Assembly: GCA_024693205.1 (NCBI GenBank)
Contig: JAILLJ010000169.1
Location: forward strand, 1-42,726
DNA: 42,726 bases
Origin: Clostridiales bacterium
GTDB lineage: Bacteria > Bacillota > Clostridia > Oscillospirales > Acutalibacteraceae
Reading direction: 5' to 3'
Shown: in pieces, positions 1-7,270 of the stretch
How the letters are laid out: every line of letters starts with the position of its first letter
How positions within the stretch are numbered: position 1 is the first letter of the stretch
Position numbers and translations under genes: made by a program
The notes under the pieces: generated by a model
Told to the model about the DNA's origin: nothing
What the model saw: the letters and a program-made list of their open reading frames with translations, nothing else
The model's database searches: none

Positions 1-141
1 GAAAACAGCCCTGTTTCGTTTTAATATAGAAAAATGTGTTTTGAATTATGATTCTTTTCTCGCCGTTTTTTCGCCCTCGACGTATCTTTATACGCCTATC
101 GGGCGAAGAAAACGGCGTCTTCATCTAAATGCGACAGCCCC
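1..141 (+). repeat. MITE-like dispersed repeat, copy A (left end outside window)
   Basis: Contains CGCCGTTTTTTCGCCC (61-76) / GGGCGAAGAAAACGGCG (101-117) hairpin and ends CTAAATGCGACAGCCCC (125-141); same sequence recurs inverted at 7292 and in direct orientation at 9770-10038. Confidence 0.85.
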
Positions 142-318
142 AGCTAAATTCGCCTTACGGCGAGCTGAATTGACCTGCGGTCAGCTGAATTTGCTTCGCA
201 AGCTAAATTCGCTTCGCGAGCTGTACGGCAAAATAAATTCAGCTGAAGCCGTAAGGCTTCAATTTAGCTATGAGCGCAGCGAACAATTTAGCTGCGAGCG
301 CAAGCGAGCAATTTAGCT
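142..318. repeat. Symmetric array of AGCTRAATT (x4) and its reverse complement AATTYAGCT (x4) separated by short, mostly palindromic cores
   Basis: AGCTRAATT at 142,163,183,201; AATTYAGCT at 236,261,285,310; cores CGCCTTACGGCG, GACCTGCGGTC, TGCTTCGCA, CGCTTCGCG, GAAGCCGTAAGGCTTC are each self-complementary. Confidence 0.9.
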
Positions 319-333
319 CAAAAAAGCATACAG

Positions 334-381
334 CCCACTGTGACGCTTTCAAATCATGAAAGCTTCAAGTGGGTCTTTTTT
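334..381 (+). terminator. Rho-independent terminator
   Basis: CCCACT...AGTGGG enclosing GCTTTC/GAAAGC, followed by TCTTTTTT. Confidence 0.7.
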
Positions 382-411: not shown

Positions 412-440
412 TTGACATTTTGCGAGAAAAAAAGTATCAT
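412..440 (+). promoter_or_regulatory. Sigma-A-type promoter TTGACA-N17-TATCAT
   Basis: TTGACA 412-417, TATCAT 435-440, 17-nt spacer, upstream of the CDS at 478. Confidence 0.75.
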
Positions 441-477: not shown

Positions 478-1839
478 ATGCATCGCTGCGAGAGCTGCAT
501 GAACATGTATGACGAGAAGAGCGGCGCCTGTCCGGTATGCGAATACAGACAAAGCATGCGGACGGGAGCCGAAGGGGTTCCTGCGCCCTCTGAAGTTAAA
601 AAACGTAAAAAACTGTTTCATACAGAAAAAACCATAAAAAGGATCATCGCCGCGTTCCTCGTGTTTCTTGCCGTATGTTCGGGGCTTCTGTTCGTGTACA
701 ATGCGTTTGAGCCTCCCGAGGAGGTGTACAACGTAAATTCCGAACACCAGGGATACGCAAAGAGAGAGTCGGTGATAAAAAAGATAAAAAAGGGCAAGGA
801 CATCGACACGATCATCATCGAAAACAAATCCCTGATGAAAAACAACAGCGATCAGAGCGCGAAGATAATCCAGAGCGTAAACATCTCAAAATACTCTGTC
901 GGCAATATCGTCATGTTCGGAAAATATCCCCAAAGGCTTATCAAGGATAAGGAGCTGATAGAGGAGCTAAATAAACTGAAAAAGGATTGGAAGAGCCTCG
1001 GCTATTACAGCGGAGAAGATCTGAACGGCGACGGCTTCGGCGACCCCGGGACGATGAAGAGCAAGGATTATACGAAATATGCCGACGTTTCATATAAGGG
1101 AGATAAATACCGCGCGGTGATCTTTACGGACTACCGTCCGTTTTGTTCAAGCGGCGTATGCGATTCGGGAAATTCAAACCAGGAAAGCAACGAATATGTC
1201 GCAAATACCGTTTATTGGTTCAGATACGAACCGCTCGAGTGGCGTGTGCTCGATCCGTCAGAGGGGCTTGTCGTCTGTAGGGATATAATCGACGCGCAGC
1301 CGTTCAGCAACCTTTGTTATGAGGATATGAGCGGAAATTATTACAATGACGAAGAGCTGAGCGTATATGCCTGCGATTATGAGACGAGCTCGATAAGAAG
1401 CTGGCTTCACACCGATTTTTACGAGACGGCATTTACCGACAGCGAAAAAAGTCAGATAGCCGTATCGAAGCTTGAAAACAAGTCTTACAGCAAAAAATAT
1501 TCTAAATATGACGGCTCCGAAACGGAGGATCTTGTTTTCCTCCTCTCGTATTCCGATATATGCAGTAAGCTATACGGCTTCAATACCGAATCGGGAGCCG
1601 CGGACAGCGCGAGAAGAAGACGAGGCACGGATTACGCCGTATGTCAGGGACTTTTTGTCGATCCGAACGACGGATATTCGCATTGGTGGCTGCGTTCGCC
1701 CGGCAACGGAAGCAGGCGCGCCTGCCGCGTTTGGAGCGACGGAGTGGCGCACAGCGTCTGCCGCGTCGACTATACATATTTCGGCGTGTGTCCCGCATTC
1801 AGGTTCGTACCGGAATACGAATTATACGGAAGCAATTAA
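478..1839 (+). CDS. Zinc-ribbon, single-TM protein with C-terminal DUF6273-like domain
   Basis: N-term MHRCESCMNMYDEKSGACPVCEY (two CxxC), TM segment IIAAFLVFLAVCSGLLFVY, C-term WWLRSPG...VCPAFRF motif. Start chosen at 478 because of the GGAG spacing; ORF track starts at 412. Confidence 0.8.
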   Translation: MHRCESCMNMYDEKSGACPVCEYRQSMRTGAEGVPAPSEVKKRKKLFHTEKTIKRIIAAFLVFLAVCSGLLFVYNAFEPPEEVYNVNSEHQGYAKRESVIKKIKKGKDIDTIIIENKSLMKNNSDQSAKIIQSVNISKYSVGNIVMFGKYPQRLIKDKELIEELNKLKKDWKSLGYYSGEDLNGDGFGDPGTMKSKDYTKYADVSYKGDKYRAVIFTDYRPFCSSGVCDSGNSNQESNEYVANTVYWFRYEPLEWRVLDPSEGLVVCRDIIDAQPFSNLCYEDMSGNYYNDEELSVYACDYETSSIRSWLHTDFYETAFTDSEKSQIAVSKLENKSYSKKYSKYDGSETEDLVFLLSYSDICSKLYGFNTESGAADSARRRRGTDYAVCQGLFVDPNDGYSHWWLRSPGNGSRRACRVWSDGVAHSVCRVDYTYFGVCPAFRFVPEYELYGSN

Positions 1840-2001: not shown

Positions 2002-4332
2002 ATGCGGCGCTGCATGGGATGCATGAAGGAATATGACGGGACGACGGACGTCTGTCCCTTTTGCGGATATGTTTACGGCAGTCCTGCCGAAAAGATAAGT
2101 CAGCTTAAGCCTTCCACCGTCCTTGCCGAAAGATATATCGTCGGCAAGTCGATAGGTCACGGAGGGTTCGGTATCACATACATCGGCTGGGACAAAAAGC
2201 TCCAAAAGGAGATCGCAATAAAAGAATATATGCCCGATATGCTCGCCATAAGATCGGGCGAAGGAAACAACGTGAAGGGCTATAACGAGGAAGCCGAAAA
2301 GAAATTTGAGATCGGCGTCAAAAGAGTCCTCGACGAGAGCCGCCGCCTTGCGCGTCTTACGGGCGTTTCCGGGATCGTCAGGGTCTACGACTGCTTCGAG
2401 GCGAACAACACGGCATATATTATAATGGAGCTTCTGAACGGAATAACGCTCAAGGAAAGGCTCAGGGACGCGGGCAGTCTCTCGTTTGAGGAAACGGTCG
2501 CGATAATGCTTCCCGTTTTAAAGGCGCTTTCCGCGACGCATAAGGCAAATATAATACACCGCGACATAGCTCCGGACAATATCTTCCTCTGTAAGGGCGG
2601 AAAGGTAAAGCTTATCGACTTCGGAGCGGCGAGCACGGCGTCCGATATGGGAGATATGAACGGCGCCGTTGTCTTAAAGCCGGGCTACGCTCCCGTTGAG
2701 CAGTACTCGAACAGGGGCAGACAAGGCCCGTGCGTCGACATCTACGCCGTCTGCGCCACGATGTACAGAATGCTGACGGGAGCCGTTCCTCCCGAGAGCT
2801 TAATAAGAAGAACCGAAAACGACACGACATTTGACGTCCGTGACATCCCGGGCGTACCGGAGGAAGCGGGATTCGCTATAATGAAGGGCATGTCGGTCAA
2901 CGCCGAGGACAGATATCAGAGCGCCGACGAGCTTTATTATATCCTCGCCGAAAGCGTAAAAAAGAGCGGCGGCGATGAGGAAGCGGCCGATCCGACCGAT
3001 AAAACGGACGTGTCTTCCGATGAAAGCAAAAAAAGACCGGTCTTGTCCGTGATACTGTCCGTTTTCGCCGTTATCCTCATTTTTGTCGTCGTCATGCTGA
3101 TACTTATAAAAAAAGGAGCGATCTCTACCGTGTCGCCCGTAACGACGACGACCGAGGCCGCGTCCGAAATAAGCGGAGAGGCGTTGAGCGGCGACTGCGG
3201 AGTCAACCTTTATTGGAAATTTGAAGAAAATGCCGGAAGGCTCACGATAACCGGAAGAGGCGAAATGGATTATTCAAAGGACGGCGTCTACGACGTCGAC
3301 GCGCCGTGGTATCCGCTTCGTGAAAGGATAAGGGAAGTCGTCTTTTCTAAGGACATGGTGTCCGTTTGCGACGGAGCGTTCAAGGGCTGTAACAAGCTCA
3401 GCTCCGTTCTGATACCCGATTTTGTAAGAGAAGTCGGAAAAGATACGTTCAAAGACTGCCCGTCTCTTCGCGCCATTGACGTTTCAAAGGCAAACAACAG
3501 CTACGAGAGCGTGGACGGCGTCCTTTACGATAACGCCATGAAAACGCTTATCAAGTGTCCGGAGGGGTTGACCGCTGACAGCGTGACCGTTCCCGACGGG
3601 GTGACGGACATAGAAGAAGGAGCGTTTTGGGGCTGCGTCAATTTAAAGAGCGTGACGCTGTCTCAGGATCTTATAAACATAGGCGCCGACGCGTTCAAGG
3701 GCTGTGAGAACCTTAAAGAAATAATTATCCCGAAGGACGTTGCGCTTATCGGGAGCGGTGCCTTCGACGGCTGTGTCTCGCTCGAGAGGATAACGGTAAA
3801 AAGCAGTAATTCCGAATATAAGAGCATTGACGGAGTGCTGTTTGACCGCGACGGCAAGGAGCTTATCCTTTATCCGTCCGGAAGAAAAAATGAGCTTTAT
3901 ACAGTGCCCGACGGCGTTACGACGATAGACGACGGCGCATTCTCGGAGTGTGTTTACTTAAAATCGCTTATTATCCCCAAAAAGGTCGATACCATTAACG
4001 GCGAGATAATAAACGGCGAGGTCTGCACGATCTATTATTACAGCAGCGACGCCTACGCCAAAACATACGCCGAGGAAAAGGGATATGAACATAAGCTGAG
4101 AGAGACCGACAGATATATCGTCGCAACGGAAAGCGCCGCGCTCAATCTCAGAAAAACTCCGTCGACGACGGGCGAGATCTTGGGGACGGTCCCGAAGGGC
4201 GAAGAGGTCCGAGTTATCGAGTTCCGCCACACGGATGACGAGAACAATCCCGATTGGTGCAGGATAATCTACGACGGGACGGAAGGCTGGGTGAGCAGAT
4301 CGATGCTTACCAAAAAAACGGTAGACTATTGA
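2002..4332 (+). CDS. Zinc-ribbon Ser/Thr protein kinase, TM, BspA-type LRR_5 repeats, C-terminal SH3b domain
   Basis: MRRCMGCM...CPFCGY; G-loop GHGGFG, AIK, HRDIAPDN, DFG; TM; repeated GAFxGCxxLxxxxIP; C-term ALNLRKTPSTTGEILGTVPKGEEV...GWVSRSMLT. Confidence 0.92.
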   Translation: MRRCMGCMKEYDGTTDVCPFCGYVYGSPAEKISQLKPSTVLAERYIVGKSIGHGGFGITYIGWDKKLQKEIAIKEYMPDMLAIRSGEGNNVKGYNEEAEKKFEIGVKRVLDESRRLARLTGVSGIVRVYDCFEANNTAYIIMELLNGITLKERLRDAGSLSFEETVAIMLPVLKALSATHKANIIHRDIAPDNIFLCKGGKVKLIDFGAASTASDMGDMNGAVVLKPGYAPVEQYSNRGRQGPCVDIYAVCATMYRMLTGAVPPESLIRRTENDTTFDVRDIPGVPEEAGFAIMKGMSVNAEDRYQSADELYYILAESVKKSGGDEEAADPTDKTDVSSDESKKRPVLSVILSVFAVILIFVVVMLILIKKGAISTVSPVTTTTEAASEISGEALSGDCGVNLYWKFEENAGRLTITGRGEMDYSKDGVYDVDAPWYPLRERIREVVFSKDMVSVCDGAFKGCNKLSSVLIPDFVREVGKDTFKDCPSLRAIDVSKANNSYESVDGVLYDNAMKTLIKCPEGLTADSVTVPDGVTDIEEGAFWGCVNLKSVTLSQDLINIGADAFKGCENLKEIIIPKDVALIGSGAFDGCVSLERITVKSSNSEYKSIDGVLFDRDGKELILYPSGRKNELYTVPDGVTTIDDGAFSECVYLKSLIIPKKVDTINGEIINGEVCTIYYYSSDAYAKTYAEEKGYEHKLRETDRYIVATESAALNLRKTPSTTGEILGTVPKGEEVRVIEFRHTDDENNPDWCRIIYDGTEGWVSRSMLTKKTVDY

Positions 4333-4420
4333 TGCGCCGAAAGGGCGGCAGCCGACGTTTCTTCATGATAAACAGTATTTTTATACGCGCTGATAAATAA
4401 ATATTTACGGGGTGAAATAA

Positions 4421-7270
4421 ATGCGTCGTTGTATGGGCTGTATGGACGAATATGACTTTACCTACGACGTATGCCCCTATTGCGGATACGTCCACGGGAG
4501 CGGCCCCGGATCGCCGGATCAGCTCCCGCCAATGACCGTTATCTTAAACAGATACGTTCTCGGCAGGGCGATAAGCCGCAGTAAGTCTAAAATAATATAT
4601 ATCGCATGGGATTCAAAGCTTCAGACAAAGGTGGTCGTAAAGGAATATCTTCCCTCCGTCTTTGCGTCGCGTGCCGAAGGCGAGGAAAACGTCGTCTGCC
4701 ATAGTGACGAAACAAGGCTGTCTTTTCTCTCCGGGATCAAAAGGGTGCTTGAGGACGGCAAAAGGCTGGCGCGGCTGAGCGACATCGACGGTATCGCGCA
4801 GGTCTACGACTGCGGAGAAGCCAACGGCACGGCGTATGTCATAATGGAGCTTTTAGAGGGCGAGACGCTTTCCGAAAGGCTCGATTACGAAAACAGCTTC
4901 TCTTTTTCCGACACGGTCGGAATAATGCTTCCGGTGTTACAGACGCTTTCCGAGCTTCATAAAGCCGGACTTGTCCATGCCGATATCTCGCCGGACAGTA
5001 TTTTTATCTGCGACAGCGGCGAAGTCAAGCTGATCGATTTCGGCTCATTCGGAGCGGGAGCGCTGACAGACGAAAAGAGCAGGACTTACATGTTAAAGGC
5101 GGGATACGCGCCGCCGGAACGTTACGGTCATAGTGAAATACTAACGCCCGCTACCGATGTTTATTCGGTATGCGCCGTTATATACAGGATGCTGACGGGC
5201 GAGACGCCTCCGGAAAGCGTTGTGAGACGCTTAAGCAACAGCGGGATGATCGACCTCATGGGATACGGCGATATCCCCGATGACGCGGCAGAGGCCGTGA
5301 TGCGCGGAATGGCGGTCAGTGCCGGAGACAGGATATACGGAGCGGAGGAGCTTTACGAAATATTCCTGCCTTATTTAAAAACGGAAGAAAGCTATCCCGA
5401 CGAAAGCGTATCGGACGGCGGACCCGAAGAGAAGCCCGCCGAAAATATCGGCTTTATTAAAAAATATAAAACGGCGATAATTGCCGCCTGTCTTGTCTTA
5501 GTTGCGGTCGTCTCTCTTATATTCATCCTCAGCGGCGTACTCGGTAAAAGGGGAGACGATATATCGGATGAAACGGGCGAGGGCGGAAACATTGTCAGCG
5601 GCTCCTGCGGCGGATCGCTCAGGTGGCGCTTTGACGAAAGCACGAAGGCTCTCGACATCTCCGGCAGCGGAGACATGATAGATTTCAGCGAAAACGACGA
5701 GCGCCCGTGGGATCGGTATACAGGAAGGATAAAATCGGTCAATATCGGAAAGGAAGTCGGGAGCATCGGCGACCACGCGTTTGAGGGCTCCTCTCTCCGA
5801 AGCGTTTTTATCCCTTCGGACGTCGTGTCCGTCGGCAAATACGCATTTAACAAATGTCTTAAATTGGAGACGGTACAGTTTGAGGACGGCGGAAGGCTGA
5901 GAACGATCGGCGACAGCGCGTTCAGAGATTGTGAAAAGCTCGTCACGCTCGTATTCGGAAACGGCATATCGCTCGAAAAGGTGGGAGCGTACGCGTTTTA
6001 CGGGTGCGGGATAAAGGACGTTACGGTGCCGCCGAGCCTTCGGGAAATACCGATTTTCGCGTTTTCAAGCTGTAATGATCTTTCAAGGGTGAAATTCTCC
6101 GAAGACGGAAGTTTACTTAAAAAAATTGACGCGAACGCGTTTTCAAACTGCGCGATAGAGAGCATCACGCTCCCGTCCGGTCTTTATTCCATAGGAAGCG
6201 GCGCGTTTTCGGGAAATCCGGAGCTTGTTTCCGCATTTATTCCCGCGACCGTGACCGAAATAAACAGCGGCGCATTTTACGGCATAAATGATCTTTTGAT
6301 AAGCTCCGACAGCGCCGACGCCTACGCCATGAAATTCGCGGAGGAACAGGGCTACAGACATTCTCTTAAAAACGGAAGCGCGTGCGGCGAGACGCTCATA
6401 TATGAATTTGACGACGTCACGGGAACGCTGACGATAAGCGGCGAGGGCGAAATGTATGACTTTAAGGAAATGACGCTTCCGCCGTGGGAGGAATATGATA
6501 AATCCGTCGTAAACGTCGTCGTCGAAAACGGCGTAACAAAAATAGGCAGCTCGGCGTTCGAGGGCTGTACTGATCTTACGAACGTCACGATACCCGAAGG
6601 CGTTACGGCGATAGGCGAAAGAGCGTTTTACGGCTGTTCGGATCTTTCGTCCTTTTCCCTTCCCGAAAGCATTTTTAAGATAGGAACGGCGGCGTTCCAC
6701 GGAACGCGCTGGTTTGACGAACGGCAGGACGGGATCGTCTATATCGGAAACATCGTCTATTCATATAAGGGAACGGTCAAGGCGAACGAAAGCGTTCTTC
6801 GGAGCGACATAAAGGCGATAGCCGATAAAGCCTTTGAAGGCTGTACGGTGTCGAGCATCGAGATACCGGAAGGCGTTAATTATATAGGCGACAGGGCGTT
6901 TTTCGGCTGGAAAACGACGCAGACAGTATATCTGTTTAACGAGGAAGCCCAAAAAAGATATGATGAAAAGAATCCCGCATGGTCGGAAGGGAGCGAAGCG
7001 AGGATAAAATATATTTCGGCAGGGGATACGCTGATCGACCTTTTCGGACTTGACAGGAGCTTTATGCCGAACGTAGTCGGGATGTCGTATGACAGCGCCG
7101 TAAAGGCTCTTAATAACGCGGGATTTCACAACATCAAAAAACAGGAGATCAAAAAGAACGATCCCTCGCTCGATAAAAAGGTCTATTATCAGGATCCTCC
7201 GAGCAGGATACTTTTAAGATATCCGACAGATACAGAGGTAACCCTTTCGGTATATACTTATGTTGAATAA
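4421..7270 (+). CDS. Zinc-ribbon kinase-like protein (probable pseudokinase), TM, LRR_5 repeats, C-terminal PASTA domain
   Basis: MRRCMGCM...CPYCGY; G-loop degraded (ISRSKSKI), HADISPDS instead of HRDxxPxN, DFG kept; C-term PNVVGMSYDSAVKALNNAGF...DTEVTLSVY. Confidence 0.9.
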   Translation: MRRCMGCMDEYDFTYDVCPYCGYVHGSGPGSPDQLPPMTVILNRYVLGRAISRSKSKIIYIAWDSKLQTKVVVKEYLPSVFASRAEGEENVVCHSDETRLSFLSGIKRVLEDGKRLARLSDIDGIAQVYDCGEANGTAYVIMELLEGETLSERLDYENSFSFSDTVGIMLPVLQTLSELHKAGLVHADISPDSIFICDSGEVKLIDFGSFGAGALTDEKSRTYMLKAGYAPPERYGHSEILTPATDVYSVCAVIYRMLTGETPPESVVRRLSNSGMIDLMGYGDIPDDAAEAVMRGMAVSAGDRIYGAEELYEIFLPYLKTEESYPDESVSDGGPEEKPAENIGFIKKYKTAIIAACLVLVAVVSLIFILSGVLGKRGDDISDETGEGGNIVSGSCGGSLRWRFDESTKALDISGSGDMIDFSENDERPWDRYTGRIKSVNIGKEVGSIGDHAFEGSSLRSVFIPSDVVSVGKYAFNKCLKLETVQFEDGGRLRTIGDSAFRDCEKLVTLVFGNGISLEKVGAYAFYGCGIKDVTVPPSLREIPIFAFSSCNDLSRVKFSEDGSLLKKIDANAFSNCAIESITLPSGLYSIGSGAFSGNPELVSAFIPATVTEINSGAFYGINDLLISSDSADAYAMKFAEEQGYRHSLKNGSACGETLIYEFDDVTGTLTISGEGEMYDFKEMTLPPWEEYDKSVVNVVVENGVTKIGSSAFEGCTDLTNVTIPEGVTAIGERAFYGCSDLSSFSLPESIFKIGTAAFHGTRWFDERQDGIVYIGNIVYSYKGTVKANESVLRSDIKAIADKAFEGCTVSSIEIPEGVNYIGDRAFFGWKTTQTVYLFNEEAQKRYDEKNPAWSEGSEARIKYISAGDTLIDLFGLDRSFMPNVVGMSYDSAVKALNNAGFHNIKKQEIKKNDPSLDKKVYYQDPPSRILLRYPTDTEVTLSVYTYVE

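Follow-up and report, generated by a model that had tools for sequence, protein, structure and literature searches.

The window analyzed here is contig G000:C81 in full (42.7 kb), from a genome assembly of 188 contigs (G000) that is 84% complete. It carries an array of mini-hairpins near its start, with 141 bases of contig upstream. Re-reading places the eight repeated motifs of an earlier note on this DNA at the positions given there: four copies of AGCTRAATT, followed by four copies of its reverse complement AATTYAGCT. These motifs, which we call linkers, are separated by short cores whose sequences also match the earlier description, and the first five cores are hairpins flush with the linkers. 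The note regarded the last two cores as not clear palindromes. Both are hairpin-like. GCGAGC-GCAA-GCGAGC has GC/GC pairs outside and inside with two G.A mismatches between them; an equivalent core in another copy is perfect, and ATTCGCTGACGCGAAC and GCTCGCTGACGCGAAC are almost fully paired. Directly behind the array lies a symmetric terminator-like hairpin that the earlier note missed (-24.3 kcal/mol, z -5.1), common to other AGCT copies of the genome and to the right end of the rumen elements described below. The arm with the long cores is the terminator side in those copies of G000 that share the window's flank. The window copy contains no PF05635 gene. Elsewhere in the window, a long hairpin, CGCCGTTTTTTCGCCC..GGGCGAAGAAAACGGCG, is found 5' of the array at positions 60-118, with the contig start just before it, and positions 2002-7270 hold two adjacent protein kinase genes with BspA-type leucine-rich repeats, one with an SH3 and one with a PASTA domain. 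The coordinates are given in Table 1.

Table 1. Features of the hairpin array and its surroundings in the window.
Feature	Position	Strand	Details
Gut-1 (RF01706) match	141..214	+	Rfam, full-length, sub-threshold; 28.5 bits, gathering score 50
Forward arm	142..209	+	Four AGCTRAATT linkers: 142-150, 163-171, 183-191, 201-209; sequence reading
Forward-arm cores	151-162; 172-182; 192-200	+	CGCC-TTAC-GGCG; GACC-TGC-GGTC; TGC-TTC-GCA; core types in similar order at other G000 loci
Fourth forward hairpin and centre	210..235	+	CGC-TTC-GCG 210-218; centre 219-235; sequence
Reverse arm	236..318	-	Four AATTYAGCT linkers: 236-244, 261-269, 285-293, 310-318
Longer reverse-arm cores	245-260; 270-284; 294-309	-	GAAGCC-GTAA-GGCTTC; ATGAGCGCAGCGAAC; GCGAGC-GCAA-GCGAGC; sequence
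Symmetric terminator-like hairpin	320-381		AAAAAAG..CCCACTGTGACGCTTTC..GAAAGCTTCAAGTGGG..CTTTTTT; directly behind array
Sigma-70-like promoter of next gene	412..440	+	TTGACA-17-TATCAT; host sequence, outside element
DUF6273 protein gene	478..1839	+	Downstream host gene, outside element

The search of the genome and its relatives that the earlier note had proposed shows that the array is not unique and recurs in both. A pattern search found 41 linker-core-linker units on nine contigs of G000 and none in the reversed control, so the window array is real and more than chance. The G000 copies have common core types in similar order (CGCC-TTAC-GGCG, GACC-TGC-GGTC, TGC-TTC-GCA and CGC-TTC-GCG), long cores such as GAAGCC-TTAC-GGCTTC in the other arm and a common flanking hairpin, CCCACT..AGTGGG. 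Two near-identical loci, G000:C77 and G000:C115 (L025 and L027), carry arrays that are two hairpin units apart in length, which shows that arrays change by whole units, and the difference is as expected from recombination between linkers. Across 85,462 species, scanned as one genome per species, at least 117 stretches show the pattern, mostly in rumen or gut Clostridia; the genomes are single representatives, mostly metagenome-assembled, and the genome counts for G000 come from searches. Triple AGCTRAATT matches were also seen outside Clostridia (L221, L236, L289 and L330, in Oceanobacillus, Methanosarcina, Bacteroidales and Shewanella), and the one-directional runs at L221, L236 and L289 resemble plain repeats. 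In sampled stretches of three genomes of other families, 27 two-armed clusters were found de novo, a few of which resemble chance chains, and none in twice as much shuffled sequence. Among viral contigs, two of the 87 pattern matches examined look like real arrays, and the viral search confirmed no relative of PF05635; carriage of the arrays by phages was rejected on these grounds.

Arrays of other genomes support the earlier suggestion that constant flanks and covarying palindromic cores reflect selection for structure. Of the 277 distinct cores, 67% form perfect hairpins that reach directly to the linkers, compared with 1.3% (maximum 3.6%) after shuffling, and self-complementarity is kept while the cores vary. 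With the cores grouped by length, standard pairs occupy 76-100% of the pair cells, compared with 47-66% when the 3' arms are permuted, and each core position shows 2-6 pair types. The stems vary but remain paired, so it is the shape that is kept rather than the stem sequence. Most loops read TNC or TNNC with a closing C-G pair, corresponding to GNA or GNNA on the opposite strand. GNA loops are stable in single-stranded DNA and GNRA loops in RNA, thus the type of loop favors neither molecule. The order of the arms is forward-then-reverse in 72 two-armed arrays and reverse-then-forward in three. Furthermore, the centre is usually the complement of the first linker and first hairpin arm (TTATATTCGCC/GGCGAATATAA, GATGTTTGCCC/GGGCAAACATC), allowing the forward arm to close on itself and giving the first hairpin an alternative partner. 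The median is 10.5 matching bases against 6 for other loci; however, some cross-locus pairs are as long (maximum 15), probably through a common linker class, and the complementarity of the centre is therefore support and not proof.

The same cores bear on a mutational origin, in which template switching would make or repair perfect mini-hairpins with no selection. The earlier note had named such a palindrome-generating process as an alternative, and the strikingly perfect stems and the whole-unit length change between C77 and C115 agree with it. Nevertheless, core types and their order are common to loci and species, which indicates that the palindromes were inherited and not made anew at the window locus; in addition, the linkers are uniform, the order of the arms is fixed, a gene is linked to the arrays, and the choice of sites is left unexplained. 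A mere by-product of mutation is thus very unlikely, while template switching may help to keep the palindromes perfect.

The insertion signature is best resolved in a rumen subfamily that has the linker of the window and sharp ends: GCGGTGTACTTC-GTAA-GGAAGTACACCGC on the left and CCCACT..AGTGGGT..GCCTCTCCC on the right. The left host flank is the A-rich half of a terminator and the right host flank the T-rich half. Both ends are present in 26 elements, and in 22 of these the same dinucleotide (TT, TA, TG or TC, hence TN) stands on either side, whereas permutation of the right flanks gave a mean of 8.1 and a maximum of 16 in 20,000 rounds; three identical bases were found in none of the 26. When the flanks of 18 elements were joined, they formed hairpins with a mean of -16.6 kcal/mol, and -11 kcal/mol or lower was reached by 89% of own pairs and 9.5% of pairs swapped between elements. 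Identical dinucleotides and joined flanks that refold a terminator indicate that the rumen elements entered existing terminator loops with a 2-bp duplication. A short, subterminal inverted end motif, CRTAARGAAG, lies at equal offset from both ends of the rumen elements, and this end pattern was not found in the genome of the window. The 2-bp duplication is shown for the rumen subfamily, and two copies of a GTGAAAT family in genome G108 look similar, with AT on either side, inside a terminator stem. In the same genome, three near-identical GTGAAAT elements (L103, L108 and L115) have ends resembling GTGTCCTTAAGGAC and one additional terminator-like hairpin, and two of them lie, with AT on both sides, between halves of a host terminator. 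Orthologous sites within the genus share 66-71% identity and are too diverged for an empty-site comparison.

Several other candidates were considered for these ends. A role of the array in the folding of the split terminator is unsupported (equilibrium base-pair probabilities 0.86, and 0.81 with a shuffled interior). A transposase-bearing version was sought and discarded, since all left-end copies examined run into arrays; a solo right end behind a host gene (L421) looks like a truncated copy, and a known transposase was found inside none of the copies. IS110-like targeting was set aside because the flanking dinucleotide varies and the ends are constant. Separately, elements that start with GGGAGAGGCTRCGTAAGGAAGTAGC form a second family at terminators, with an end resembling that of the arrays' own elements; they lie beside terminator-like A-runs (L559:1550-1732, L560:2491-2972 and L566:1890-1912). 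In L559 and L560 a TnpV gene follows (in L560 with a PF14198 match, E 7e-39).

Terminators behind tRNA genes are the other main site. In 15 of about 22 tRNA transcription units of G000, a symmetric terminator ends the unit and an array lies immediately behind it; seven or eight units do not show this arrangement, and one more is interrupted by the contig end. Other families likewise show terminators followed by arrays after tRNA or tmRNA genes. Elements of this kind often occupy the ends of tRNA operons in this group of gut bacteria. No proven target duplication is seen for arrays that directly follow tRNA terminators. Four tRNA ends of G000 that have no array (C82, C96, C143 and C148; L148, L155, L422 and L424) share a motif near GTTGATATATAAC, placed in or just behind the tRNA terminator and resembling an integration site; at C82 the next reading frame is like the start of a tyrosine integrase. 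We found no terminator-loop miniature elements (MITEs) with arrays in the open-access literature.

The forward arm of the window aligns over its full length with the Rfam model Gut-1 (model positions 1-77 of 77), below the cut-off (Table 1). Other AGCT copies of G000 score up to 39.0 bits, still under 50, and ten Gut-1 matches in G000 exceed the cut-off. The arrays of G000 also show the linkers GTGAAAT, TGATAT, GTGATGT, AATGATGT and AATGAAG, each largely uniform inside its array and with both orientations present, so that Gut-1 covers a single arm from one linker class in a wider family. Gut-1 was listed as a likely noncoding RNA from the human gut by Weinberg et al. 2010 (PMC2864571), and no follow-up after that description was found in the open-access literature. 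Together with the full-length alignment and the strong covariation, this listing agrees with a functional structured noncoding RNA, in which case the arrays would be transcribed and act as RNAs and the copies would be ordinary paralogues. However, arrays lie just behind terminators or within their loops with 2-bp duplications, their layout is two-armed and inverted, and the copies number 20-30 per genome with changing linkers. We consider this reading improbable; an RNA role would be compatible with mobility.

The earlier note proposed looking for a linked reverse transcriptase or TnpA-REP-like gene; the linked gene instead encodes a PF05635 protein. A search with the end motifs retrieved a 1,212-bp element, G122:C31:8165-9376 (L558:566-1777), flanked by TA on both sides and consisting of a left end, an AGCT array, a PF05635 protein (125 aa, E 1.5e-28), a second ORF and a right end. 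A second long copy (L562), from another metagenome-assembled genome, is convergent with a gene that reads like an RNA polymerase beta' subunit. In both, a 148-aa protein with no Pfam match overlaps the end of the PF05635 gene (L558:1251-1697 and L562:436-882) and is a possible second component of the element. PF05635 genes are present in 54 of 118 relatives, and G000 has two, both behind arrays. Gut-1 matches within 600 bp of PF05635 genes number 13 against 0.3 expected, all on the same strand and mostly 121-174 bp upstream. By reading, an array immediately precedes the gene on its 5' side at 16 of 30 fetched loci, and the strict two-armed test was passed at 10 of the 30 and by none of 90 shuffles. 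The linkers at these loci include AGCTAAAT, AATGATGT, AATGAAG, GTGATGT, GTTATATT and GTGATATT, among others. Eleven of the 30 loci follow a tRNA or tmRNA gene at a distance of about 200-330 nt; in the window's genus (G006, L581), a AGCTAAAT array is found between a tRNA-Tyr terminator and the PF05635 gene. Gut-1 and PF05635 co-occur in genomes (43 of 53 against 11 of 65; 43/10/11/54), with an odds ratio of 21 and a p of 1e-12 that is inflated by relatedness.

In many cases (8 of 12, loose pattern) a sigma-70-like promoter starts at the far array end, so transcription of the PF05635 gene does not have to cross the array. This position, 5' of the gene and with the promoter right at the far end, is what would be seen if the tRNA-linked arrays were a fixed 5' control element or insulator that blocks tRNA transcription from entering the PF05635 gene, and the rumen subfamily alone were mobile. 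Most arrays have no adjacent PF05635 gene, however, and the window-type linker is found with and without the gene, which makes such an insulator unlikely.

A short conserved linker with hairpins next to it, an arrangement in inverted pairs, intergenic location and multiple copies would also suit elements of the REP/BIME type, mobilized by a Y1 (RAYT) transposase, which the earlier note thought a poor fit. Y1_Tnp was found neither in G000 nor in several genomes that carry 12-33 copies of Gut-1, and Gut-1 and Y1 transposases are not associated across the 118 genomes (odds ratio 0.78, p 0.58). Y1 enzymes are also not known to leave a 2-bp duplication, and this explanation is scarcely credible.

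The family is common in gut Clostridia and essentially undescribed, and the window array is probably a gene-less copy of such a small mobile DNA element, living at intrinsic terminators. As we read it, the unit comprises a terminator hairpin, a two-armed array and, in complete copies, a promoter and the gene of the four-helix-bundle PF05635 protein. The array is built of about four linkers and mini-hairpins forward, a centre and about four reversed, with a linker uniform within each element and different among linker classes. Most copies lack the gene and resemble MITEs, and in the best-resolved subfamily insertion takes place in a terminator hairpin's loop, with 2 bp duplicated. We infer that the array is the cis-acting part and folds in the single strand, and that its linkers may be what the PF05635 protein or a partner enzyme recognizes; that protein or enzyme would move gene-less copies in trans. 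Terminator loops could be a safe site because the stem halves would still be able to pair. The PF05635 protein is a candidate mobilizer; it would bind the array and help to move it, and window-type copies would move, or have moved, in trans.

Compared with known systems, the array is not a CRISPR, in agreement with the earlier note, since half of the repeats are inverted and the cores are self-complementary and common to loci. REP/BIME elements share hairpins beside a short conserved motif and an inverted organization, but the array elements have no Y1 link, several linker classes and four-plus-four arrays. Like MITEs (BOX, RUP, SPRITE and others), the array elements are short, multi-copy and intergenic, with target duplication and an inverted end motif (here the 2-bp TN and the short subterminal CRTAARGAAG of the rumen subfamily) and no transposase. 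A possible counterpart of an autonomous relative is the long (1.2-kb) element that carries PF05635 and a second ORF, without a known transposase. The array elements differ from MITEs in their hairpin-array body, uniform linkers, insertion into terminator loops and link to PF05635. Group IIC introns also insert at intrinsic terminators, but the array elements are about 330 bp long, duplicate 2 bp and have no reverse transcriptase in the copies read.

Gut-1 resembles the window array in having three mini-hairpins with a repeated single-stranded linker between them and in that its whole model aligns to one arm, and both types of array are found in G000. The window array differs in its linker (AGCUAAAUU, GUGAAAU in Gut-1) and in its score under the cut-off, and the Rfam model covers one arm, without the reverse arm, terminator and gene. 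Gut-1 thereby gains an anatomy, a target and a linked gene.

PF05635 (S23/IVP) proteins are known chiefly from intervening sequences (IVS) of 23S rRNA, which lie in helix loops (sites in helices 9, 25 and 45); mobility has been proposed for these sequences, and their ORF might contribute to it (PMC4990558). They also resemble Avd of diversity-generating retroelements, which is needed for retrohoming (PMC10053308). Complete array elements likewise have a PF05635 protein, absent from the window copy, and both kinds can occupy the loop of a pre-existing RNA hairpin, on the IVS side by published description (PMC4990558). In contrast, the examined array copies lie in or at terminators and tRNA operon ends and not in rRNA helix loops, and an array stands between site and gene. 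Terminator loops and rRNA helix loops are alike as targets, a parallel that is suggestive only, and the IVS may be kin of the array elements. Tentatively, and with less than even confidence, hairpin arrays and PF05635 genes could form a separate class of mobile element, in which an S23/IVP/Avd-like protein helps to move the array into RNA-type hairpin loops (terminators, and elsewhere 23S rRNA helices), and Gut-1, terminator MITEs and 23S IVS would be one system. S23/IVP proteins gain a concrete setting, a hairpin-loop element with target duplication, and their presence in an inserted element makes the old proposal of a role for them in mobility directly testable.
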